NCBI GenBank assembly: GCA_947475685.1
Contig: CANJNC010000001.1
Location: 1-64,000, forward strand
Direction of reading: 5' to 3'
DNA length: 64,000 nucleotides
From: Comamonadaceae bacterium
GTDB lineage: Bacteria; Pseudomonadota; Gammaproteobacteria; Burkholderiales; Burkholderiaceae_C
The notes beneath the pieces are model-generated. The model did no database searches, was not told where the DNA came from, and saw only the letters and a list, made by a program, of their open reading frames with translations. A program made the position numbers and the translations under genes. Position 1 is the first letter of the stretch. Each line of letters begins with the position of its first letter. Positions 33,507 to 44,799 of the stretch are shown here, in pieces.

Positions 33507-34577
33507 TCACATTCTTTTTTTGAAGCGTTTAAAAAATGAATGCTGCTCAATGGCCATGGCAAGATGGTGCTGCACTTGAGTCTCAAAGTCATCTGCATCG
33601 CAGGCAAACACCTGTCTATGCTTCATGGCTCTGAGCCAAGTCAATTGCCTCTTGGCCAGTTGGCGCGTGGCGGTCAAACTGTCTTTAACAAACTGTTCGT
33701 ACTCAGGCAAGTTGCAATAACCCTCCAATTGAATCGCATCGATATCAATCCCTCCCCGATCTTGAAGAGCTTGCCAAAAAGCCCAAGCTTGACGGTAGCC
33801 CACGCAACGCATGCTGGGCATGGATGGATTTAACTTGGGATTTTTGTAAAAAGACAAGGACTCTTGAAGAAATCCATTGGCCAACATGCGTCTAAACCGA
33901 TCTTCAATATTTGCATGCAACCAAGATCGGTGTGTAGGCTCAAAGGATAACAATAGACAAGAGACTTGCTTTTCTTGGGGCACCTCTTTTCTTTCCTGTG
34001 CATACTTGGATTGAAAAGAGGAAATGCTTTTCCCTGTGAGCATCCACACCTCCAATGCTCGACCAATGCGCTGGGCGTCTGCGGGGGGCAAACGCTTTGC
34101 AGTGACCGGATCAATGCGCTCAAGCTTTTCATGCATTTTGGGCCACCCCACTTCTTGAGCTTCAAGCAAAATTTCCCGCCTCACATCTTCATTGGCCACG
34201 GGCAAATCGTCCAAACCATCAACCAACGCGTTGAAATACAAAAGCGTACCTCCAACCACAACAGGTATCTTACCGCGGGACTTGATGTCAACTATGAGGT
34301 CTTTGGCCTGCTTGGCAAAATCTGCTGCGCTATAGGACTCATGGGTGGATCGGATGTCAATCAGATGATGCGGCACTCTTTGAAGCTCTTGCGCACTGGG
34401 CTTGGCCGTTCCAATGTCCATGCCGCGATACACAAGAGCTGAATCCATGCTGATGAGCTCGATGCTGTAGCGCTCACCAAGCGTCATGGCCGCTTTGGTT
34501 TTACCACTGGCCGTTGGACCCACCAATGCCAAAAAATCCCAAGCAGCAGCGCCTTGCCCCAACACTGGGCTTGTCAT
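33507..34577 (-). CDS. miaA: tRNA dimethylallyltransferase
   Basis: MiaA adds a dimethylallyl group to A37 of tRNAs that read UNN codons. The P-loop GPTASGKT lies at residues 20-27, followed by ELISMDSALVYRGMDIGTAKP, the tRNA and substrate loop, and the later RQLAKRQLTWLR typical of the C-terminus. It is 356 residues, slightly longer than average. It follows mutL on the same strand with 58 bases between, as in the common mutL-miaA arrangement. Confidence 0.95.
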   Translation of the reverse strand: MTSPVLGQGAAAWDFLALVGPTASGKTKAAMTLGERYSIELISMDSALVYRGMDIGTAKPSAQELQRVPHHLIDIRSTHESYSAADFAKQAKDLIVDIKSRGKIPVVVGGTLLYFNALVDGLDDLPVANEDVRREILLEAQEVGWPKMHEKLERIDPVTAKRLPPADAQRIGRALEVWMLTGKSISSFQSKYAQERKEVPQEKQVSCLLLSFEPTHRSWLHANIEDRFRRMLANGFLQESLSFYKNPKLNPSMPSMRCVGYRQAWAFWQALQDRGGIDIDAIQLEGYCNLPEYEQFVKDSLTATRQLAKRQLTWLRAMKHRQVFACDADDFETQVQHHLAMAIEQHSFFKRFKKRM

Positions 34578-34635
34578 TGAATCGCACCTCTAGACATTGG
34601 GCTGTGAAGGGGCGACTTTGACCAATCCACCCGCA

Positions 34636-36621
34636 TCAGCGTCCTCTTAAAAACAATGCATCAAGGGCTTTCATTGACAAGGCCTGCCAAGTGGGTCGAC
34701 CGTGATTGCACTGATCTGAACGCTCGGTCACCTCCATTTGACGAAGGAGTTCGTTCATCTCTTGAAGGGTCAACTGCCTATTGGCTCTGACAGCGCCATG
34801 ACAAGCCATGGTGGCCAACAATTCGTTTCGGGCTTGCTCAACGACAAACTGTCCCGTGTTCAAGGACAATTCGTGCAACACACTTCGAGCCAAAGAGACC
34901 AAATCCCCATCCGCCAAGGGCGCTGGAACCGCTCTGATCACTAGTGTTTTGGTCGATAAAGCAGAAATATCAAAACCAAGGGCCCTAAGACTTTCAGCGT
35001 TTTCTTGTGCAATCACCATTTCTTGATCCGTTGCTGAAAAGCTCTGGGCAATGAGCAAAGACTGGCTGCTGATCTCTTGCGCGTCAAGTTGGCTCTTTAG
35101 TCGCTCGTAGACAATTCTCTCGTGCGCTGCATGAATGTCCACCAAAATCAAACCTTGCGCATTTTCAGCCAACAAATACACGCCATGCAATTGCGCCAAA
35201 GCCCGTCCAAGAGGCCAATCCTGCTCAGCATTTTGAAGCGAGGTGTGCGCGGCTTGAAAGGCGGGTTGTTTTAAACCTTGGGCAGCAAGATCATTGGCGC
35301 CCGAGTTGGCACCCAAAGATGCCAAGGCTTCCAGGGGGGGGGGATGCGTCAAGTCTTTGCTGACTTGCTGGCCTTGTCCCCACAGGCGCTCGACTTGAGA
35401 GAACTGATGTGCTGCCAAATCCATTCTGGACTGCTTCCAACCGTGGGCAGAGCTTGTCCATCCTTTGGGCTCAGAGCCCAAGACTGGAGTGCTTTTGGAT
35501 AAGTTTTCCATGCTTTGCGGGCCTTCGCCCAAGGGAGCACGGCCCGCCAGAGGTGAATTTATCATTGACGCCGAATCGATTGCGCTACCCACTCTGGGCA
35601 CTGCAAGTGCTCGCTCAATGGCATGCAACACAAGCTGATGAATTTCTCTTGACTCGCGAAACCGCACTTCTATTTTGGTGGGATGCACATTGACATCCAC
35701 TCGCTTGGGGTCGATCTCAATGAACAAGACATACACAGGCTGCTTTTGTCCGTGCAGCACATCTTGATACGCTGCACGCACTGCGTGATTGATCACTTTG
35801 TCTTTTACAAAACGCTGATTCACATACGAAAACTGTTGGTCGGCTCGGCTCCTTGCTGCTGCAGGCAAACCGACTCGGCCATAAACTCTCATCGAATTTT
35901 CAACATGATCAATGCTCACGGAATTGATTAAAAATTCTGCTCCCAACACATCCGCGACTCTTTTATCAAAAGCATTTTCCTCACCAGACGCTCTCCACTG
36001 CTCAGCGAGTTTACCCTCGGCATAGATCGAGAAAGAAACTTGAGGCCTCACCAAAGCATGCCGACGCACAGCCTCCACGCAATGGGCCAACTCCGTGGCA
36101 TCGGTTTTCAAAAACTTTCTTCTTGCGGGTGTACTGAAAAAAAGCTCCCTCACCTCCACGGTCGTGCCAAGGCCTCTGGCCACCACACTCAACTCGCCCG
36201 AACGCGCTTGTAACGACATCGCTTGCGCCTGATCTGCAGGTCTAGAGGAAATGCTCAACTCAGAGATGGACGCAATGGCAGCCAACGCTTCGCCCCTAAA
36301 GCCCATGGACGCGACAGACTCCAAGTCTTCTAAGTTGCTGATTTTGCTCGTGGCATGGCGCTTCAATGCCAAAGCCAACTCCGCCTTTGAAATCCCTGCG
36401 CCGTCATCTTCAACGCTGATCAAGCGCACGCCCCCAGCCTGTAAGCGAACCGTGATGCCAGTGGACTGCGCATCCAATGCGTTGTCGACCAACTCTCTTA
36501 CAACGGATGAGGGCCGTTCCACCACTTCGCCCGCGGCGATTTGGCTAATGAGCTCTTGAGCCAGCTCCGAGATGGGGCGTCTGACGAAGGGGGCGACCAT
36601 AAAAGAAGATGAAATGTTCAC
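34636..36621 (-). CDS. mutL: DNA mismatch repair protein MutL
   Basis: MutL couples MutS mismatch recognition to strand incision. The GHKL ATPase domain holds ELISQIAAGEVVERP, LVDNALDA, SVEDDGAGI and STSKI-type GFRGEAL motifs in the first 110 residues. The C-terminal dimerisation domain (about 470-661) ends ACHGAVRANRQL and CNHGRPTW. There is no DQHAx2E-x4-E endonuclease motif; the position reads DIHAAHERI, so MutH-like or accessory nuclease use is not resolved. The start is GTG at 36621 or ATG at 36600; the latter gives the more usual N-terminus (MVAPFVRRPISEL). The central linker is long and variable. Confidence 0.95.
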   Translation of the reverse strand: MNISSSFMVAPFVRRPISELAQELISQIAAGEVVERPSSVVRELVDNALDAQSTGITVRLQAGGVRLISVEDDGAGISKAELALALKRHATSKISNLEDLESVASMGFRGEALAAIASISELSISSRPADQAQAMSLQARSGELSVVARGLGTTVEVRELFFSTPARRKFLKTDATELAHCVEAVRRHALVRPQVSFSIYAEGKLAEQWRASGEENAFDKRVADVLGAEFLINSVSIDHVENSMRVYGRVGLPAAARSRADQQFSYVNQRFVKDKVINHAVRAAYQDVLHGQKQPVYVLFIEIDPKRVDVNVHPTKIEVRFRESREIHQLVLHAIERALAVPRVGSAIDSASMINSPLAGRAPLGEGPQSMENLSKSTPVLGSEPKGWTSSAHGWKQSRMDLAAHQFSQVERLWGQGQQVSKDLTHPPPLEALASLGANSGANDLAAQGLKQPAFQAAHTSLQNAEQDWPLGRALAQLHGVYLLAENAQGLILVDIHAAHERIVYERLKSQLDAQEISSQSLLIAQSFSATDQEMVIAQENAESLRALGFDISALSTKTLVIRAVPAPLADGDLVSLARSVLHELSLNTGQFVVEQARNELLATMACHGAVRANRQLTLQEMNELLRQMEVTERSDQCNHGRPTWQALSMKALDALFLRGR

Positions 36622-36661
36622 CTCTACATTTTAGGACAGATCAAGCGAGACGGAGAAATCA

Positions 36662-37321
36662 ATGGATAATGGCTTCATGGATTTCATTAGTAACTATTTA
36701 GATCTCATCTTTCACGTTGACCAATTTCTCACGGCTTGGGTGCAGTCCCATGGTGAGTTGACTTACGGGCTTCTCTTTTTGATCATTTTCATTGAAACAG
36801 GCCTCGTTTTCATGCCCTTTTTACCAGGAGACTCCCTGCTTTTCATCATCGGAGCTCTTTGCAGCGCGGAACTTTTGTCCCCTGTCCCGTCTTTGCTGGT
36901 TTGTTTAAGCGCTGCCATTTTGGGAGACCAGCTCAACTACACCATTGGGCGCAATTTTGGCAAACACTTGCTCCACCCACCATTTTCAAGATGGATCAAA
37001 CTCCAAGCACTTCAAAGAAGTGAAGTTTTTTTTGAAAAATGGGGCTCTTTGGCCATCATCTTGGCGCGCTTCATGCCTTTTGTTCGAACGTTTGCACCCT
37101 TTGTCGCGGGCATCTCTAAAATGAATCGAATGACCTTCACGGCGTTCAACGCCATAGGGGGCATGATTTGGGTCATTGGCGTGGGTCTGATGGGATACCT
37201 GCTTGGAGAAATACCCTGGGTAAAATCCCATATCCAGGCAGTTGTATTGATCTTGATACTGGGCCCGGGCTTGTTGGCCATTTGGGGCATGCTCAAATCT
37301 CAAGGAAACCGAAGACCTTAA
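36662..37321 (+). CDS. DedA-family membrane protein
   Basis: The 219-residue protein carries the VTT (SNARE-associated) domain: ETGLVFMPFLPGDSLLF, then GDQLNYTIGRNFG, and the arginine-rich ARFMPFVRTFAPFVAGISKM. DedA proteins are inner-membrane lipid scramblase-like proteins; several act as flippases for undecaprenyl phosphate or phospholipids and support envelope integrity. About five hydrophobic segments are visible. A good ribosome binding site (GGAG) precedes the ATG. It is divergent from mutL and 38 bases upstream of the nagG-like gene, on the same strand. Confidence 0.88.
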   Translation: MDNGFMDFISNYLDLIFHVDQFLTAWVQSHGELTYGLLFLIIFIETGLVFMPFLPGDSLLFIIGALCSAELLSPVPSLLVCLSAAILGDQLNYTIGRNFGKHLLHPPFSRWIKLQALQRSEVFFEKWGSLAIILARFMPFVRTFAPFVAGISKMNRMTFTAFNAIGGMIWVIGVGLMGYLLGEIPWVKSHIQAVVLILILGPGLLAIWGMLKSQGNRRP

Positions 37322-37359
37322 GACGTTTCACCATCCACACACGGCACATCCAATCAACC

Positions 37360-38718
37360 ATGAACACTGTCAATGAGCCCCTAAGCACTGAGCAACGTGA
37401 TCCGTTGCTGATGCCCCCTCCAAAATGGCCAGGCCAACAAACCAGTCGAATCCCTTTTTGGGTTTACACAGATCCTCAGGTTCATGCCAAGGAGCTGAAC
37501 AAAATATTTTATGGCCACCATTGGAGCTATGTAGGCCTGCTCGCAGAAATACCGAAATTGGGTGATTTCAAAAAAACCCAAATTGGTGAGCGTGAGGTCA
37601 TCATGACCAGAGATCATGTTCACCCAAGCCAAAAAGACAGCGATCACGGCATTCGAGTAGTTGAAAACAGGTGCGCACACAGAGGCGTGCGCTTTATCCA
37701 AGAATCCTATGGCAACAAAAGAAGCTTTGTTTGCCCTTACCATCAATGGGCTTACAAGCTCAATGGCGATCTTGGGGGACTGCCCTTCAAAGAGGGGGTG
37801 AAGAACGGGGACAGTCTTCATGGCGGCATGCCCGATGACTTTGAGCTCAAAGACCATGGCTTGAACAAACTAAAAGTGGAAGTCCTTCATGGACTGGTCT
37901 TTGCCACATTTGACCACCAAACGCCTGATCTCAAAAGTTATCTCGGAGCGGAAGTCTTGCCCTGGATTGACCGCATCTTCCAAGGACGCGAACTTACCTT
38001 GCTGGGCTACAACCGCCAAAGAATTCCAGGCAATTGGAAACTCATGATGGAGAACATCAAAGACCCCTACCATCCAGGACTTTTACATACTTGGTTTGTC
38101 ACCTTTGGTCTGTGGCGAGCCGATCAAAAGAGCCGGATGGTTTTGGACAAAAGGGGCCGTCACGCCGTCATGCTCTCAAGAAGGAATGAAGGCGGGCAAG
38201 GCCAAGTCACGCAAGGCGTCACCAGTTTTAAAGCCAACATGAAACTGCACGACGATCGACTCTTGGACATTGTGACAGAGGATTGGTGGAGTGTAGAGGA
38301 CCCCAATCATCCTGGACAAACCATTACCCCTAGCGTGTCCATGATCACGCTTTTCCCAAGCCTGATCATTCAGCAACAAGTCAACTCTTTGTCGACCAGA
38401 CAAATTATCCCCAACGGCAACGGCAGCTTTGACTTTGTTTGGACGCATTTTGGCTTCTCAGATGACTCTCAAGAGATGGCTCGAAGGCGACTGAGGCAGT
38501 CCAACCTCTTTGGCCCTGCAGGCTATGTGAGCGCTGACGATGGCGAGGTGATTGAATTTAGTCAAAGTGGTTTTGAGCAATTCAATAGCGATGGCCAACA
38601 AGAAGGACACACACTTTGTGAGCTCGATGGCGTGGGTGTCCAAAGCACTGAGCACATGGTGACTGAAACACTGATTCGAGGCATGTACAGATATTGGCGA
38701 GAGGTGATGGAATTATGA
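37360..38718 (+). CDS. nagG: Salicylate 5-hydroxylase large subunit (Rieske oxygenase alpha)
   Basis: The 452-residue alpha subunit of a ring-hydroxylating oxygenase begins at the ATG at 37360; the frame stays open upstream over dedA but that part is not coding. The Rieske centre is Cys105-x-His107 and Cys125-x2-His128. The mononuclear iron site is Asp235-Pro-Tyr-His238, with His243. Segments such as DPYHPGLLHTWF, FGLWRADQKS, GSFDFVWTHFGF, FGPAGYVSADDGEVIE and HMVTETLIRGMY match, from memory, NagG of the salicylate 5-hydroxylase of Ralstonia U2, which converts salicylate to gentisate. Anthranilate dioxygenases are more distant relatives. It overlaps the beta subunit gene by 4 bases (ATGA). 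No ferredoxin or ferredoxin reductase partner lies next to it. Confidence 0.88.
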   Translation: MNTVNEPLSTEQRDPLLMPPPKWPGQQTSRIPFWVYTDPQVHAKELNKIFYGHHWSYVGLLAEIPKLGDFKKTQIGEREVIMTRDHVHPSQKDSDHGIRVVENRCAHRGVRFIQESYGNKRSFVCPYHQWAYKLNGDLGGLPFKEGVKNGDSLHGGMPDDFELKDHGLNKLKVEVLHGLVFATFDHQTPDLKSYLGAEVLPWIDRIFQGRELTLLGYNRQRIPGNWKLMMENIKDPYHPGLLHTWFVTFGLWRADQKSRMVLDKRGRHAVMLSRRNEGGQGQVTQGVTSFKANMKLHDDRLLDIVTEDWWSVEDPNHPGQTITPSVSMITLFPSLIIQQQVNSLSTRQIIPNGNGSFDFVWTHFGFSDDSQEMARRRLRQSNLFGPAGYVSADDGEVIEFSQSGFEQFNSDGQQEGHTLCELDGVGVQSTEHMVTETLIRGMYRYWREVMEL

Positions 38719-39296
38719 GTCACGCCCCCATCCATATAAGCTTTTCCATCGATAAGCTGCAACCCATTTCGGACAAATTGGCCTTACAAGACTTGCAGTT
38801 TGAAGTCAATCTATTGAATGCCAAGTATGCACGAACACTCGATGATCAGCGTTTCAATGAATGGCCTGATTTTTTTGTAGAGAATGCCCACTACAAAATT
38901 CAAGCTCGAGAAAATTACGCTCGAGGACTTCCTCTTTGCTTGGTTGACTTAGAGAGCCAAGGGATGATGAAAGACCGTATATACGGTGTCACTCAAACCA
39001 TCTTTCATGCGCCCTACTATACAAGGCACCTTATTGGGCAAGTTTTGATCTTGGGCTCACAATCGACTCAATATCTGAATGAAACCATTCGGTCTTCGCT
39101 TGAGAGCCCCGCTCTCATTGTGACGTCCAGCAATTACTGTATCTTCAGAACCAAACCAGGACAAACCTCAGAGGTCTTCAATGTGGGGTACTACTTGGAT
39201 CACTGGGCGCACACCCAAGAGGGCTTAAAACTCGTCTCTCGCCATTGCATTTATGATTCAGAAATGATTTTGAACTCTTTGATTTATCCCATTTAA
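38715..39296 (+). CDS. nagH: Salicylate 5-hydroxylase small subunit (beta)
   Basis: The 193-residue protein is the beta subunit partner of the upstream oxygenase alpha subunit, with a SnoaL-like fold and structural role. The ATG at 38715 overlaps the nagG stop (ATGA). Characteristic segments are LNAKYARTLDDQRFNEWPDFF, DRIYGVTQTIFHAPYYTRHLIG and SNYCIFRT, each shortened to motif length in family alignments. It is slightly longer than the typical 160-170 residue small subunit. Downstream amiC is on the opposite strand, 25 bases away. Confidence 0.85.
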   Translation: MSHAPIHISFSIDKLQPISDKLALQDLQFEVNLLNAKYARTLDDQRFNEWPDFFVENAHYKIQARENYARGLPLCLVDLESQGMMKDRIYGVTQTIFHAPYYTRHLIGQVLILGSQSTQYLNETIRSSLESPALIVTSSNYCIFRTKPGQTSEVFNVGYYLDHWAHTQEGLKLVSRHCIYDSEMILNSLIYPI

Positions 39297-39321
39297 ATCT
39301 ATTGAGACAGCTCATAGGAGC

Positions 39322-40839
39322 TCAAAGCGTTCGATTCCTAATGATCGGAGGGCTTTGTTTGAAGTATTTGACGATGGCCGCATTGATGGCACCCGCCATG
39401 TCATTTTGAAAACTTGGCTTGACCAACATCGCCTCCTCCTGAGGGTTGCTGATGAATGCAGTCTCAACCAACAAACTTGGAATATCAGGTGCTTTCAAAA
39501 CAGCAAAACCAGCTTGCTCAACGCGTGCTTTGTGAAGTGTACCGACTCTTTTGATTTGCCCAAGAAATTCAGACCCCAACTTCAGGCTGAAGTTGATCTG
39601 AGCATCAGTGCTCATGTCCAGAAGCGTTTTTTGCACAACCACATCTTTATTTTTTAAATTGATGCCACCCACCAAATCGGCCTTGTTCTCTTGATCGGCC
39701 ATCCATCTGGCAGCTGCACTGGATGCACCACTTTGACTCAATGCAAACACACTCGCGCCTTTCGCATCCGGATTGATGTACGCATCGGCGTGCAGACTTA
39801 CAAACAAATCAGCCTGCACCCTTTGCGCTTTTCTCACCCGGTCTTGCAAGGGCACAAAGTAATCGGCATCCCGGGTTAAAAATGCCCGCATGGCGTAATC
39901 CCCTTGGCGGGCCTTGATCACGGTCGAATCGATCAAATTCTTCAATTTCATTGCAATTTGCAAGACCACGTCTTTTTCCTTGGTCCCTTGCCGACCGATG
40001 GCGCCTGGATCCTCCCCGCCATGACCTGGATCGATGGCAACCACAATCCAACGGTCCACCACCTCTGGTGGCACTTGATCGGCAGAAGGTGACATTGAAT
40101 TGTCTTTGGCGCTTTGTGGCTCCACAGATGTGCTCGCCTCAGAAGGAGTCGGTGGCTTGGATGCCATGGGCAATTGAGCAGAGGCACGAAGCGGTGGTTT
40201 TTTACTTTGCTCTTCAATCCAAATCGACAACACATCCTCAGGCACTTTGGGCTTGGATTGAATCGTTGAGTGCGAAGAGGCAAGCGAGGTCGCCTCCTTT
40301 TTCACTGCGCTGTGCAACTCTTTACCAAGTTTGGTGTGTTGCGCAATCAAGGCCTCCAATGGATCTATCTCTTTGGTTGGATACAAGTCCATGACCAAGC
40401 GATGGTTGTAGCGGGCCTGATCCACGCGGGTGGCCAAAACGGGCGCCAAGTTAAAGAGTTGGGGCCTGACCATTTGCCTTAAGTCAAAAACCAATCTGAC
40501 AATGCCTGGGCCGTACTGCCCGATTCGAACACCGCTGATGAATGGATCATCTGCTTTGACTTGACTGACCAATTCTTTGAGCGCCGGATTCAAGTCAGCG
40601 CCATCAATATCAACGGCAATTCGCGGAGGATCCAAGATCAAAAGCGGTTGACTCTTTAGAGGAACATCAGACTCAATGGTGACACGGGTGTATTCATTGG
40701 CCGGCCAAATTCTCACGGCCAAGACACTTGCACCCCATGCAAACTCTTGCAGCCCTAAGCTCAACACAAGCGTTGAATACCCCAGCAATTCACGTCGAGT
40801 GAGCTGACTCTTCATGGTGTGCACATGGGGTTGCTTCAT
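39322..40839 (-). CDS. amiC: N-acetylmuramoyl-L-alanine amidase with AMIN domain
   Basis: This periplasmic zinc amidase splits septal peptidoglycan during daughter cell separation. A twin-arginine signal is visible near the N-terminus (SQLTRRELLGYS, hydrophobic stretch, cleavage near FAWGA), so export is by Tat, as for AmiA/AmiC. An AMIN domain (about 40-150) binds peptidoglycan, a Ser/Pro-rich linker follows, and the Amidase_3 domain holds IDPGHGGEDPGAIG (about residue 270), SLHADA (about 348) and VETAFISNP. It follows tsaE with a 27-base gap, on the same strand. Confidence 0.92.
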   Translation of the reverse strand: MKQPHVHTMKSQLTRRELLGYSTLVLSLGLQEFAWGASVLAVRIWPANEYTRVTIESDVPLKSQPLLILDPPRIAVDIDGADLNPALKELVSQVKADDPFISGVRIGQYGPGIVRLVFDLRQMVRPQLFNLAPVLATRVDQARYNHRLVMDLYPTKEIDPLEALIAQHTKLGKELHSAVKKEATSLASSHSTIQSKPKVPEDVLSIWIEEQSKKPPLRASAQLPMASKPPTPSEASTSVEPQSAKDNSMSPSADQVPPEVVDRWIVVAIDPGHGGEDPGAIGRQGTKEKDVVLQIAMKLKNLIDSTVIKARQGDYAMRAFLTRDADYFVPLQDRVRKAQRVQADLFVSLHADAYINPDAKGASVFALSQSGASSAAARWMADQENKADLVGGINLKNKDVVVQKTLLDMSTDAQINFSLKLGSEFLGQIKRVGTLHKARVEQAGFAVLKAPDIPSLLVETAFISNPQEEAMLVKPSFQNDMAGAINAAIVKYFKQSPPIIRNRTL

Positions 40840-40866
40840 CTTGGGCCCACTAGATCTGAAAAAAAG

Positions 40867-41349
40867 TTATGCAGCCCAGACATTGCACACCTTGGCTGTG
40901 TTCAATCTCAAAACCACCTCGCGCTGATCCAATGCATTGACATGGAGATGAATCTCCATGTCTGGCTTGGGAGCCAAGGCAGCGATTTTTTCGGGCCACT
41001 CATAGATCTTAAGCCCCTTGGAGGCAAATATATCCCTCAAACCCGCATCCTCCCATTCATAAGGATCACTGAAGCGGTAAAAGTCCATGTGCCAAATCAG
41101 CATTTCCTGATGATTCACTAAAGTCTCGTATGATTCAACAATGGCATACGTGGGACTTTTGATGGTGCCCTGTACACCTAAGGCTCGAAGTAAATATCGG
41201 GTCAAACTTGTCTTTCCGCTGCCTAGATTGCCAAACAAGGCAATGCTAGCATCAACAATACCTGGATCAAGAGAGAGTTTTTGGGCAAAATCCAAGGTTT
41301 GTTGCTCATCGATCCAAAGCAAATTGTAAGTTTGGGCTGATTTATTCAA
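40867..41349 (-). CDS. tsaE: tRNA t6A synthesis ATPase TsaE
   Basis: TsaE is the small ATPase that supports the TsaB-TsaD complex in t6A37 formation on ANN-decoding tRNAs. The P-loop GNLGSGKTSLTR lies at about residues 40-51, then KSPTYAIVE and the HMDFYRF and EWPEKI strands, typical of the family. Length is 160. The start is a TTG at 41349; no better codon exists before the conserved core. It is divergent from queG, with only 13 bases between the two start codons. The gene order tsaE-amiC matches the common tsaE-amiB order. Confidence 0.9.
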   Translation of the reverse strand: MNKSAQTYNLLWIDEQQTLDFAQKLSLDPGIVDASIALFGNLGSGKTSLTRYLLRALGVQGTIKSPTYAIVESYETLVNHQEMLIWHMDFYRFSDPYEWEDAGLRDIFASKGLKIYEWPEKIAALAPKPDMEIHLHVNALDQREVVLRLNTAKVCNVWAA

Positions 41350-41362
41350 AGGACATCTCGTT

Positions 41363-42556
41363 TTGTCAGATCGATCTCAATTGTTCAAAAAAATCCAAGC
41401 GTGGGGCCAAGACATCGGGTTTTCACAAATCGGTGTCTCATCCATCGACCTGTCTCTCGCTGAGAAACCACTGCTCGACTGGCTGCAAAAAGGCTTTCAT
41501 GGAGACATGCACTACATGCAGCGTCATGGGCTCTTGCGCGCGAGACCCCATGAATTGGTCCCAGGCACCGTGAGCGTGATCACCGCGCGCATGAATTACT
41601 TGAACAGCACTGAGCCCAAGCCAACACCAAATCTCACAAAAGCACCCCATCCAGTCTTGACAAGCCAACCCGTGCATTTTAGTGATAAGTTACATGCCCA
41701 CACAAGGGTTCACAACGATCAACACCATTGGGTCGATGAAGAATGGGCTCAAATCAACGCACCAGAGCAAGCCTACGTCTCTTTGTACGCCAGAGGGAGG
41801 GACTACCACAAGACCGTCAAACAACGGCTTGAGCGGCTTGTAGCGCTCATCCAATCAGAGGTCGCAGATGTGAGCCACCGTGTTTTTTGTGACTCCGCTC
41901 CCGTGATGGAAGTCGAGCTTGCATTGCGCTCTGCTTTGGGTTGGCGTGGCAAACATACGTTGCTGCTCAACCGTGAAGCGGGCTCGATGTTTTTTTTGGG
42001 TGAGATATTCGTCAATTTTGACCTACCATTCTCCACCACCGACCCCGTGTCAAATGAGCATTGTGGCTCTTGTAGCGCTTGCATAGACATCTGTCCTACA
42101 AAAGCCATCGTTGCGCCCTACTTGCTTGATGCCAGGCGTTGCATCTCATACCTTACGATCGAACATCCGGGATCCATCGATATCTCACTCAGGCCCTTGA
42201 TGGGCAACAGAATCTACGGCTGTGACGATTGCCAGCTCATTTGCCCATGGAATAAATTTGCTCAAAAAACCAGCCTGCCTGAATTCCAAAGTCGAGACGT
42301 CATCACCCATCAAACCTTGCTGCAACTGTGGTCTTGGAGCGAGGAAGACTTCTTAAACCACACCCAAGGCAGCGCCATTCGCCGCGTAGGCCATGAGAGG
42401 TGGCTTAGAAACATTGCCATTGCGCTTGGCAACAACTTGGCCCAATGTTTTGAGCCCAAAGAGCGAGAAGATATTTTAAAAGCACTGTCAACAAGGCTGG
42501 AGCATCCAAGTGACGTGATCAAAGAACACGTGAGGTGGGCCATTGATCAAGCCTGA
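41363..42556 (+). CDS. queG: Epoxyqueuosine reductase
   Basis: QueG is a cobalamin and 4Fe-4S enzyme that reduces epoxyqueuosine to queuosine in tRNA, the last step of the pathway. The 397-residue protein has the ferredoxin-like cluster motifs: Cys234-x2-Cys237-x2-Cys240-x3-Cys244, then Cys287-x2-Cys290-x3-Cys294, with the first cluster completed by the later segment. The N-terminal B12-binding domain and a C-terminal HEAT-like region are present. The start is TTG at 41363 with AAGGA nine bases upstream. The stop lies inside the next gene, 14 bases past its start, so translation is probably coupled. Confidence 0.92.
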   Translation: MSDRSQLFKKIQAWGQDIGFSQIGVSSIDLSLAEKPLLDWLQKGFHGDMHYMQRHGLLRARPHELVPGTVSVITARMNYLNSTEPKPTPNLTKAPHPVLTSQPVHFSDKLHAHTRVHNDQHHWVDEEWAQINAPEQAYVSLYARGRDYHKTVKQRLERLVALIQSEVADVSHRVFCDSAPVMEVELALRSALGWRGKHTLLLNREAGSMFFLGEIFVNFDLPFSTTDPVSNEHCGSCSACIDICPTKAIVAPYLLDARRCISYLTIEHPGSIDISLRPLMGNRIYGCDDCQLICPWNKFAQKTSLPEFQSRDVITHQTLLQLWSWSEEDFLNHTQGSAIRRVGHERWLRNIAIALGNNLAQCFEPKEREDILKALSTRLEHPSDVIKEHVRWAIDQA

Positions 42557-43517
42557 ACTGCACACCATTGCATTTGAAGACAACACATTTCAGTGGACCT
42601 GCTCAGAGGATGAAACCCTCTTGGCCAGCGCAGAGCGCCAAGGCATTGATTTGCCAAGCAGTTGCAGAAACGGCACTTGCAGAACATGTTTGATCAAAAC
42701 TCACACCTCCGACTATACGTATGTGGTTGATTGGCCGGGACTTAGCTTGGACGAAAAATTCCTTGGCTACACGCTTTGCTGTGTGGCCAAGCCTCAAGGC
42801 AATGTCACGATTGTGGATTCCAATTTGAGCAAAGACGCCTGCGCCCAAGCCTTTCAAGTGGTTTTTGAAGACAGCATGTTCATTGCGCTCAATAAACCCA
42901 GTGGCTTGCTGTCTGTGCCGGGACGAGGCGAATTAAAGAGCGACTGTTTATCCAGCAGAGTACAAAAAAAATACCTCAATGCACAAATCGTTCACCGACT
43001 GGACCAAGCCACCTCAGGGCTTTTAATCATGGCCCTGGGCCAAGACCACCAAAGGTGCTTGAACAAGCTCTTTGCGGGTGGCCTCATCCGTAAAACTTAC
43101 ATCGCCCAAGTCCAAGGCTCGTTGCCCATGACGTCGACTTGGTCGCTCATTGACGCGCCAATTTATGCCGATTGGTCCGAGAGGCCCAAAAGAGTGGTCG
43201 ACCCAAGGGGCAAACCCAGTCAAACCCGTTACAGATGCATCCAATCCAATGCGCAGGAATCCTTGCTTGAGGTTGAACCCTTGAGTGGCAGAACCCATCA
43301 AATTCGAGTGCACTTGTCGCACATTGGATACCCTATTTTGGGAGACAGGCTTTATGCACCCCACGACACGCTTGAACGCTCAACACGCCTTTTACTGCAC
43401 GCCTACCAATTGCGCTTTATTCACCCTAAGATGCACGAGGACGTCTTTATTCAATCAAATTGCCCCAAAGAGTTCACGCTTGAACGATTTGACCTGAGCA
43501 CTCAACATCTGGGTTAA
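42543..43517 (+). CDS. [2Fe-2S] ferredoxin-RluA-type pseudouridine synthase fusion
   Basis: Two domains sit in one 324-residue frame. Residues about 7-95 are a plant-type ferredoxin: Cys41-x4-Cys46-x2-Cys49-x29-Cys79, exactly the canonical cluster spacing, in LPSSCRNGTCRTCLI and GYTLCC. Residues about 105-315 are an RluA/RsuA-superfamily pseudouridine synthase: LNKPSGLLSVPGRG, catalytic Asp154 in HRLDQATSGLL, GRTHQIRVHL and GYPILGDRLY. The TTG at 42543, with GAGG a few bases upstream, is the only start that covers the ferredoxin domain. It overlaps queG by 14 bases. I know of no established protein with this pairing. The target RNA uridine is not known, nor what the cluster does. Confidence 0.85.
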   Translation: MIKPELHTIAFEDNTFQWTCSEDETLLASAERQGIDLPSSCRNGTCRTCLIKTHTSDYTYVVDWPGLSLDEKFLGYTLCCVAKPQGNVTIVDSNLSKDACAQAFQVVFEDSMFIALNKPSGLLSVPGRGELKSDCLSSRVQKKYLNAQIVHRLDQATSGLLIMALGQDHQRCLNKLFAGGLIRKTYIAQVQGSLPMTSTWSLIDAPIYADWSERPKRVVDPRGKPSQTRYRCIQSNAQESLLEVEPLSGRTHQIRVHLSHIGYPILGDRLYAPHDTLERSTRLLLHAYQLRFIHPKMHEDVFIQSNCPKEFTLERFDLSTQHLG

Positions 43518-43617: not shown

Positions 43618-44799
43618 ATGCGCGAGGTCGTGATAGTGAGTGGCATGAGGACTGCCATCGGCACATTTGGAGGAAGTCTTAAAGATACACCCGTGACAGA
43701 ACTCGCAACCACAGCGGTGAAAGCGGCGCTTGAGCGTGCACAAGTCAACGCTTGCGACGTGGACCAAGTGGTCATGGGACACGTGGTCAACACAGAGCCC
43801 AAGGATCTGTATCTCTCTAGAGTGGCGGCCCTGAATGCTGGATGCGATCAAAAAGTAACCGCTTTTAATGTCAACCGCTTGTGTGGCTCTGGTCTTCAAG
43901 CTTTGGTCTGTGCTGCGCAATCCATTATGCTGGGGGACACTCAAATTGCAGTTGCCGGCGGTGCAGAGAACATGTCCAGAGGTCCTTTTTTGAACACCAC
44001 GCAGAGATTTGGTCAGCGCATGGGGGATACCACCTTGGTTGACATGATGGTGGGCGCTTTACATGACCCTTTTGACAAAATTCACATGGGTGTGACTGCA
44101 GAGAACATTGCAACAAAATGGGGCATCAGCAGACAATCTCAAGATGAATTGGCTCTACAAAGCCACTTAAGGGCTGAAAAAGCCGTTGCCAGTGGTTACT
44201 TCAAGGACCAAATCACCCCAGTGTTGCTCAAGTCTAGACAAGGCCCCGTTCCTTGGGCAAGTGACGAGCACTTTAGAGTGAATGCTAAGATTGAAGACTT
44301 CTCAAAACTCAAGCCCGTCTTCGTCAAAGAACAGGGAAGTGTCACTGCGGGCAATGCATCGGGCATCAACGATGCAGCTGCAGCACTGGTTTTGATGGAT
44401 GCACAAAGTGCCAAAGATCGCCACCTCAAACCCATGGCCCGATTGGTCAGCTACTCCCATAGTGGCGTGGATCCCAAATACATGGGCATGGGTCCTGTGC
44501 CAGCGACACAAGCGGCCTTGAAAAAAGCCGGCCTAACGGTCAAGGACTTGGATGTGATTGAAGCCAATGAAGCCTTTGCGGCGCAGGCCTGTGCGGTGAT
44601 CAAAGACTTGGGGCTTGATGGACAAAAAGTCAACCCCAATGGCTCTGGCATTTCCTTGGGTCACCCGATTGGCGCAACAGGTGCGCTGATCACGGTCAAA
44701 GCCCTGCACGAGCTCGAACGCATCAAAGGGCGCTATGCCTTGGTGACCATGTGCATAGGGGGTGGCCAAGGCATTGCTGCTATTTTTGAGCGACTTTAA
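43618..44799 (+). CDS. bktB: Beta-ketothiolase
   Basis: The 393-residue thiolase closely follows BktB of Cupriavidus in sequence as far as I recall (VRTAIGTFGGSLKD, ANRLCGSGLQA-type, GISLGHPIGATG and CIGGGQGIAAIFER). Active residues are Cys89, His349 and Cys379. BktB condenses or cleaves acetyl-CoA and longer acyl-CoAs and feeds polyhydroxyalkanoate synthesis or acetoacetyl-CoA metabolism. A strong ribosome binding site (AGGAGAG) precedes the ATG. No phaB or phaC is in the window; scoAB at 23.4-24.7 kb could supply related steps. Confidence 0.9.
   Translation: MREVVIVSGMRTAIGTFGGSLKDTPVTELATTAVKAALERAQVNACDVDQVVMGHVVNTEPKDLYLSRVAALNAGCDQKVTAFNVNRLCGSGLQALVCAAQSIMLGDTQIAVAGGAENMSRGPFLNTTQRFGQRMGDTTLVDMMVGALHDPFDKIHMGVTAENIATKWGISRQSQDELALQSHLRAEKAVASGYFKDQITPVLLKSRQGPVPWASDEHFRVNAKIEDFSKLKPVFVKEQGSVTAGNASGINDAAAALVLMDAQSAKDRHLKPMARLVSYSHSGVDPKYMGMGPVPATQAALKKAGLTVKDLDVIEANEAFAAQACAVIKDLGLDGQKVNPNGSGISLGHPIGATGALITVKALHELERIKGRYALVTMCIGGGQGIAAIFERL

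Follow-up and report, generated by a model that had tools for sequence, protein, structure and literature searches.

A plant-type ferredoxin domain joined in one frame to an RluA-type pseudouridine synthase in a group of freshwater bacteria

A single open reading frame in the 64,000-nucleotide stretch of DNA analysed here (referred to throughout as the window) joins an N-terminal plant-type [2Fe-2S] ferredoxin to a C-terminal RluA-type pseudouridine synthase. The fusion is real and occurs in one group of freshwater bacteria; it is a new domain architecture that combines two known families, and it attaches a redox cofactor domain to a class of enzyme that carries out redox-neutral chemistry. 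The interpretation favoured here, to which we would give somewhat better than even chances, is that the product is a bifunctional protein that arose by fusion of neighbouring genes. Genomes are denoted below by G numbers and individual loci by L numbers.

The fused gene and its two halves

The frame (42543..43517, plus strand) encodes 324 amino acids and runs from a TTG start codon, situated 3 bases behind GAGGTGGG, to a TAA stop; its parts are listed with its neighbours in Table 1. Pfam places Fer2 at residues 14-85 and PseudoU_synth_2 at residues 113-260, both above their cut-offs, and HRLDQ is found in all 13 fused proteins described below, bearing out the preliminary description of this DNA, in which a ferredoxin domain and an RluA-type synthase with Asp154 had been read in one frame. 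An AlphaFold2 model based on a 43-row alignment has a mean pLDDT of 93.2 and a pTM of 0.87. Among solved proteins, E. coli RluA comes closest to the C-terminal part of the protein, and plant-type ferredoxin domains come closest to its N-terminal part.

Table 1 Position and strand of the fused gene, its parts and neighbouring genes in the window.
Feature	Position	Strand	Basis or remark
Fused ferredoxin and RluA-type pseudouridine synthase gene	42543..43517	+	ORF, Pfam, model, structure comparison
Ferredoxin domain, residues ~1-93	42543..42821	+	Pfam Fer2, profile A2, cysteines in 13/13 fused proteins
Linker, residues ~94-104	42822..42854	+	Comparison of 13 fused genes
RluA-type pseudouridine synthase domain, Asp154 in HRLDQ, GRTHQ motif	42855..43514	+	Pfam, structure comparison, motifs
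bktB-like thiolase	43618..44799	+	Downstream neighbour in many congeners; tree marker
queG, epoxyqueuosine reductase	41363..42556	+	TIGR00276, 432.1 bits, cut-off 200
tsaE, in inverted block	40867..41349	-	PF02367
amiC-like amidase, in inverted block	39322..40839	-	PF01520 and AMIN
mutL, in inverted block	34636..36621	-	Gene-order comparison and Pfam
miaA, in inverted block	33507..34577	-	PF01715

HRLD and GRTHQ are motifs of the RluA-type synthases (PF00849), and both the catalytic Asp of the former and the latter, downstream of it, are present in 13/13 fused proteins; the match of the window protein to PF00849 scores 103.6 bits against a curated cut-off of 26.8. Judged by its sequence, the synthase half is RluA-type but is not filed as RluA, because it scores below the cut-offs of both the RluA equivalog NCBIfam NF007543 (162 bits, cut-off 286) and TIGR00005 (177.8 bits, cut-off 192.7). 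The ferredoxin half is likewise, on its scores, a Fer2 relative that is not filed under the fdx_plant subfamily: PF00111 gives 46.9 bits against a curated cut-off of 21, and TIGR02008 gives 45.6 bits against 81.15.

Plant-type [2Fe-2S] ferredoxins carry a four-cysteine cluster motif, C-x4-C-x2-C-x~30-C, and the four cluster cysteines are kept in 13/13 fused proteins. In the window protein the ligands are Cys41, Cys46, Cys49 and Cys80, the first three of which had already been assigned; the residue previously given as the fourth, Cys79, is an extra cysteine, the corresponding position being proline in 8 of the 13 fused proteins, Cys in four (the window's included) and Ser in G1063. The window protein thus has a Cys-Cys pair at the cluster (Cys79-Cys80, window 42777-42782), in which Cys replaces the proline before the fourth ligand.

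The two halves differ in charge, with calculated pI values of 4.5-6.5 (acidic) for the ferredoxin half of the 13 fused proteins and, for the synthase half, of 8.8-9.8 (basic) in 12 of them and 7.0 in G1063. Every one of the 13 fused genes has an ATG, GTG or TTG in the linker region, but none of these codons stands at a position common to all 13, and separate translation of the synthase from an internal start codon is, on this comparison, not favoured.

Distribution and reality of the fusion

The genomes of the window's genus were scanned with a profile (A1) made from eight fused proteins, and 67 of the 84 match at E <= 1e-50. Both halves occur in one stop-free frame in 13 of the 84 (G000, G005, G020, G022, G025, G028, G031, G033, G1052, G1054, G1055, G1063 and G1068), all with E of 2.7e-137 or better, and in a further seven the halves share a frame that is interrupted by one stop. 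The count rests on the 84 genus genomes, and loci L067-L072 and L074, seemingly the same contigs or proteins, are not counted again. The search for the same domain order in relatives, which the preliminary description had proposed, therefore has a positive answer within the genus. Outside it none was seen: in a scan of 250 genomes of the family, G000, itself one of the 13, was the sole fused genome among the 79 that match at E <= 1e-75; at E <= 1e-45, 222 of the 250 match, with no further fusion among the matches listed, best first. A close fusion elsewhere in the family would be expected among those listed matches, because all 13 known ones score as well as they do. In the class, 42 of 369 genomes match at E <= 1e-60, and the ferredoxin half is covered in G000 only.

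It had been recognised from the outset that an error joining two neighbouring genes, or absence of the fusion from relatives, would dispose of the finding. In favour of an artefact of assembly or sequencing it can be said that the fused records L067-L072 and L074 all come from metagenome-assembled genomes. Against this, the 13 fused genes come from different genomes and are each one open frame, the other 12 proteins being 43-72% identical to the window's, and selection acts on both halves: dN/dS is 0.13-0.20 for the ferredoxin half and 0.08-0.20 for the synthase half in 7/7 pairs (some dS values exceed 1, making those ratios rough), because of which both halves are taken to be under purifying selection, and kept. 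With 13 intact fused genes and purifying selection, the artefact reading has next to no chance of being right and is rejected. For the 12-codon linker, dN/dS is 3.3 in one pair.

Gene order and origin of the fusion

Several relatives carry the same two genes unfused, and the arrangements in which they do so form a series. G1062, G1051 and G026 have the order queG (minus strand), tsaE, amiC, mutL, miaA, ferredoxin, MFS transporter (minus strand), synthase, bktB, and from mutL onward the order in G018 is identical to that of the non-inverted relatives; in all four of these genomes the gene between ferredoxin and synthase encodes a transporter (Pfam MFS_1) and runs on the opposite strand. In G1056 there is no MFS gene, and the ferredoxin adjoins the synthase in a different frame. 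In Limnohabitans proper the ferredoxin and synthase genes are separate but adjacent, with the same order and strand as in the fusion and with bktB downstream in L114/G032; the pair differs from the fusion in being two proteins, with 7/84 genus genomes having them in frame with one stop between. In G034 the ferredoxin has been lost and the synthase is retained in the same neighbourhood.

Further afield, in most of the Variovorax loci seen both genes share a strand, with 1.3-1.6 kb separating them, and in L081, the one Variovorax locus inspected, an MFS gene lies in that gap; bktB is not downstream in the Variovorax loci seen. In the rest of the family the ferredoxin is often first, on the same strand and 1.4-36 kb before the synthase (judged by eye among the listed matches), such genomes outside the genus numbering 16 (G386, G1003, G867, G330, G988, G922, G1005, G892, G859, G964, G924, G813, G953, G996, G863 and G860), in addition to G270 and G978, where the two genes are adjacent. 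The reverse order within 1.4-36 kb was not seen in family genomes outside the genus among the matches listed. Many family genomes have the two genes far apart or on separate contigs, and at L087 and L138 the synthase is followed by a ferredoxin of lower similarity.

In a tree of BktB the 11 fusions linked to queG form one clade (100/100), which groups with three genomes in which the MFS gene separates the two (100/99); the remaining pair, G022 and G1052, is placed in another part of the tree. A constraint that keeps the fused rows together is rejected here (AU p 0.0043, for a group defined only after inspection of a tree), and when it was repeated with more loci the topology alone was used (the fused rows L302 and L303 being labelled as others). 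In a tree of the synthase, comprising 110 of 157 distinct rows after thinning by a filter, a single origin of the fusion is not rejected (AU p 0.76); the label noFER on G026 (L028) in that tree reflects a short locus, G026 having a ferredoxin. Taken together, the trees make two separate fusion events likely.

Of the three options raised in the preliminary description, the simple fusion of neighbours is the best supported, since unfused, adjacent and transporter-separated versions all exist. According to this preferred explanation, the starting state would have been a small acidic plant-type [2Fe-2S] ferredoxin encoded by a separate gene upstream of an RluA-type synthase, on the same strand; the intervening transporter gene would have been lost in this lineage and the reading frames then joined, an order of events (ferredoxin-transporter-synthase, then adjacency, then fusion) that we infer from the trees. 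In the present protein the ferredoxin half would bind a [2Fe-2S] cluster and would presumably still ferry single electrons between a reductase and its old partner enzyme, the synthase half would presumably still form pseudouridine from U in loops of the RluA type (tRNA position 32, 23S rRNA 746, mRNA hairpins), and the two most probably act independently of one another. E. coli RluA acts, according to PMC11421799, on tRNA, 23S rRNA and mRNA. The locus offers a clear case of the formation of a fusion, because extant relatives still show the intermediate gene orders.

The overlap with queG and the inverted block

The gene immediately before the fusion, queG, overlaps it by 14 bases, and the preliminary description had seen in this a hint that the ferredoxin part serves QueG. 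Gene coordinates place queG immediately before the fusion in 11 of the 13 fused genomes, so that the adjacency whose conservation was to be checked stands in these and fails in G022 and G1052, where miaA takes that place: in G022 the fused gene still follows miaA, with queG at the other end of the block, and L074 (taken as G1052) also has miaA upstream of the fusion. The adjacency in the 11 arises because the queG-tsaE-amiC-mutL-miaA block is inverted. In the window this block (33507-42556) is inverted with respect to the non-inverted congeners, in which the ferredoxin gene is directly preceded by a miaA orthologue; G000, G005 and G1068 have an inverted block with queG touching the fusion (the stretch read extending to miaA in G000 alone). 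On the evidence of gene order, then, the overlap is a by-product of block inversion. Also inside the inverted block are a VTT-domain gene (36662-37321), which we take to be DedA-like, and the Rieske oxygenase pair described below.

PDOR-like reductases contain a plant-type [2Fe-2S] domain. Electron donation by the ferredoxin half to the neighbouring QueG would be chemically plausible by analogy with the related reductive dehalogenases, which are described in PMC10463259 as receiving electrons from a fused PDOR-like reductase domain, or from spinach ferredoxin paired with E. coli flavodoxin reductase; the 14-base overlap and the position of queG in 11/13 fused genomes point the same way. The inversion explains the adjacency without such a role, however, and in the non-inverted congeners, of which two carry the fusion, miaA occupies that position. 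In addition, QueG is present in 76/84 genomes of the genus, among them 34 of the 40 that lack this ferredoxin, and its co-occurrence with the ferredoxin in the genus is not significant (Fisher p 0.14, uncorrected for shared ancestry). Linkage to queG is confined to the inverted sub-clade, and a role as donor to QueG is considered distinctly unlikely.

Ferredoxin and synthase as separate genes

As a rule the ferredoxin has a gene of its own. It is present in 144 of the 250 genomes of the family (E <= 1e-22), and the synthase in 222 of the 250 (E <= 1e-45), of which all except one have a single match. Only three of the 144 have the ferredoxin without the synthase (G845, G921 and G997, of completeness 86, 87 and 81), the co-occurrence giving a Fisher p of 1.3e-7, uncorrected for shared ancestry. 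Because of this, and because fusion has likely happened twice, a functional tie between the two is hinted at, which would be unexpected for a neutral fusion. In the genus the ferredoxin occurs in 44 of 84 genomes (E <= 2.1e-32, a cut placed above a gap to 7.6e-22), all 44 of which have the synthase, with 23 having the synthase alone and 17 neither; at E 1e-14, 77 of the 84 match the ferredoxin, the additional matches being in longer frames. In the window's own genome no second small ferredoxin of the same type was found, further matches being in frames of 336-363 aa.

In other families, none of the 17 genomes with the ferredoxin that were tested has an RluA-grade match, their best synthase matches having E values of 1.0e-40 to 1.8e-35; these 17 were drawn from 21 such genomes, G069, G081, G115 and G307 (matches in frames of 340-431 aa) being left out. 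The weaker synthase matches are presumably RluC or RluD, judged by size. As far as gene content can tell, neither protein needs the other, because the ferredoxin occurs without an RluA-grade match (17/17) and the synthase without the ferredoxin (23/84). A strict tie of the ferredoxin to RluA was considered and is rejected by the same 17 genomes. The ferredoxin goes strictly with neither RluA nor QueG, and it probably has a partner of its own.

G034 (L301), G029, G017 and others among the 23 that keep the synthase without the ferredoxin are in effect natural knock-outs. The stand-alone protein (profile A2) is a widespread Burkholderiales [2Fe-2S] ferredoxin with the signature SCRNGTCRTC...WPGLSxEEK, examples being L114:4971-5282, L081:3310-3588 and L140:4989-5279, and its frequency in the family (144/250) means that the fusion also draws attention to this small protein. 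No neighbour common to the stand-alone loci of different families was seen in the few loci inspected.

Relation to known systems and possible redox input

By title or the start of the abstract, no fusion of a ferredoxin with a pseudouridine synthase was found among the papers listed in searches of the open literature, in keeping with the earlier remark that no described system of this architecture was known. E. coli RluA (PDB 2i82) is without a ferredoxin domain, and the window protein falls well short of the RluA equivalog cut-off, as noted above. On the ferredoxin side the nearest structures are benzoate dioxygenase reductase (1krh) and ferredoxins of cyanobacteria or plants; stand-alone plant-type ferredoxins and the ferredoxin domains of BenC/MmoC-type reductases have the same fold and the same four-Cys motif, but the window ferredoxin differs in forming the N-terminal half of an enzyme that modifies RNA, with no flavin domain.

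We know of no earlier pseudouridine synthase with a built-in redox cofactor, and if the cluster affects the synthase then RNA modification gains a direct redox input. The [2Fe-2S] domain might in that case tune pseudouridylation by the RluA half (for instance psi32 of tRNA) to iron or oxygen, and the protein might be an iron- or redox-responsive synthase coordinated with the other loop modifications of the block, Q34 (QueG), i6A37 (MiaA) and t6A37 (TsaE); were this so, it would be the first of its kind. The probable independence of two fusions, the tight co-occurrence of ferredoxin and synthase in the family, the confident two-domain model (pTM 0.87) and the extra Cys79 beside ligand Cys80 in 4/13 fused proteins are all in its favour. 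There is also a precedent in TrcP of Vibrio cholerae, an RluA-family synthase with an added N-terminal part that, according to PMC9553926, edits anticodon-loop position 32 within an iron-responsive network with ms2io6A37 and Q34. The added part of TrcP differs, being made up of a cytidine deaminase plus a long helical domain with no ferredoxin, and the response of TrcP to iron is ascribed to MiaB rather than to a cluster in TrcP itself (PMC9553926). Moreover, 23/84 genus genomes keep the synthase without the ferredoxin, and the ferredoxin is present where an RluA-grade match is absent (17/17). Tuning by iron or oxygen is thus regarded as unlikely, and coordination with the block's other modifications is put at the same level.

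Other local redox partners

The ferredoxin half could also serve some other redox enzyme encoded locally, either in MiaB-type methylthiolation of A37, for which it may be relevant that miaA is directly upstream in the non-inverted order, or as donor to the Rieske oxygenase of the window, whose gene pair (37168-39296) is 3 kb away. The ferredoxin is, however, far more widely spread than this locus (144/250 family genomes), and a local partner of either kind is thought very unlikely; the bifunctional protein with independently acting halves remains the preferred reading. MiaE was considered as a further partner of this kind: PF06175 matches in 0/84 genus genomes, but also in 0/14 controls, and these zeros therefore do not count against it.

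The Rieske pair itself consists of large and small subunit genes on the plus strand, between mutL and amiC, and is weakly AndAc/AndAd-like, with scores under the NCBIfam cut-offs; no reductase or ferredoxin gene was found around it in the ORF lists read there. Similar Rieske-like frames were seen by eye beside amiC in the fused relatives L067 and L072.
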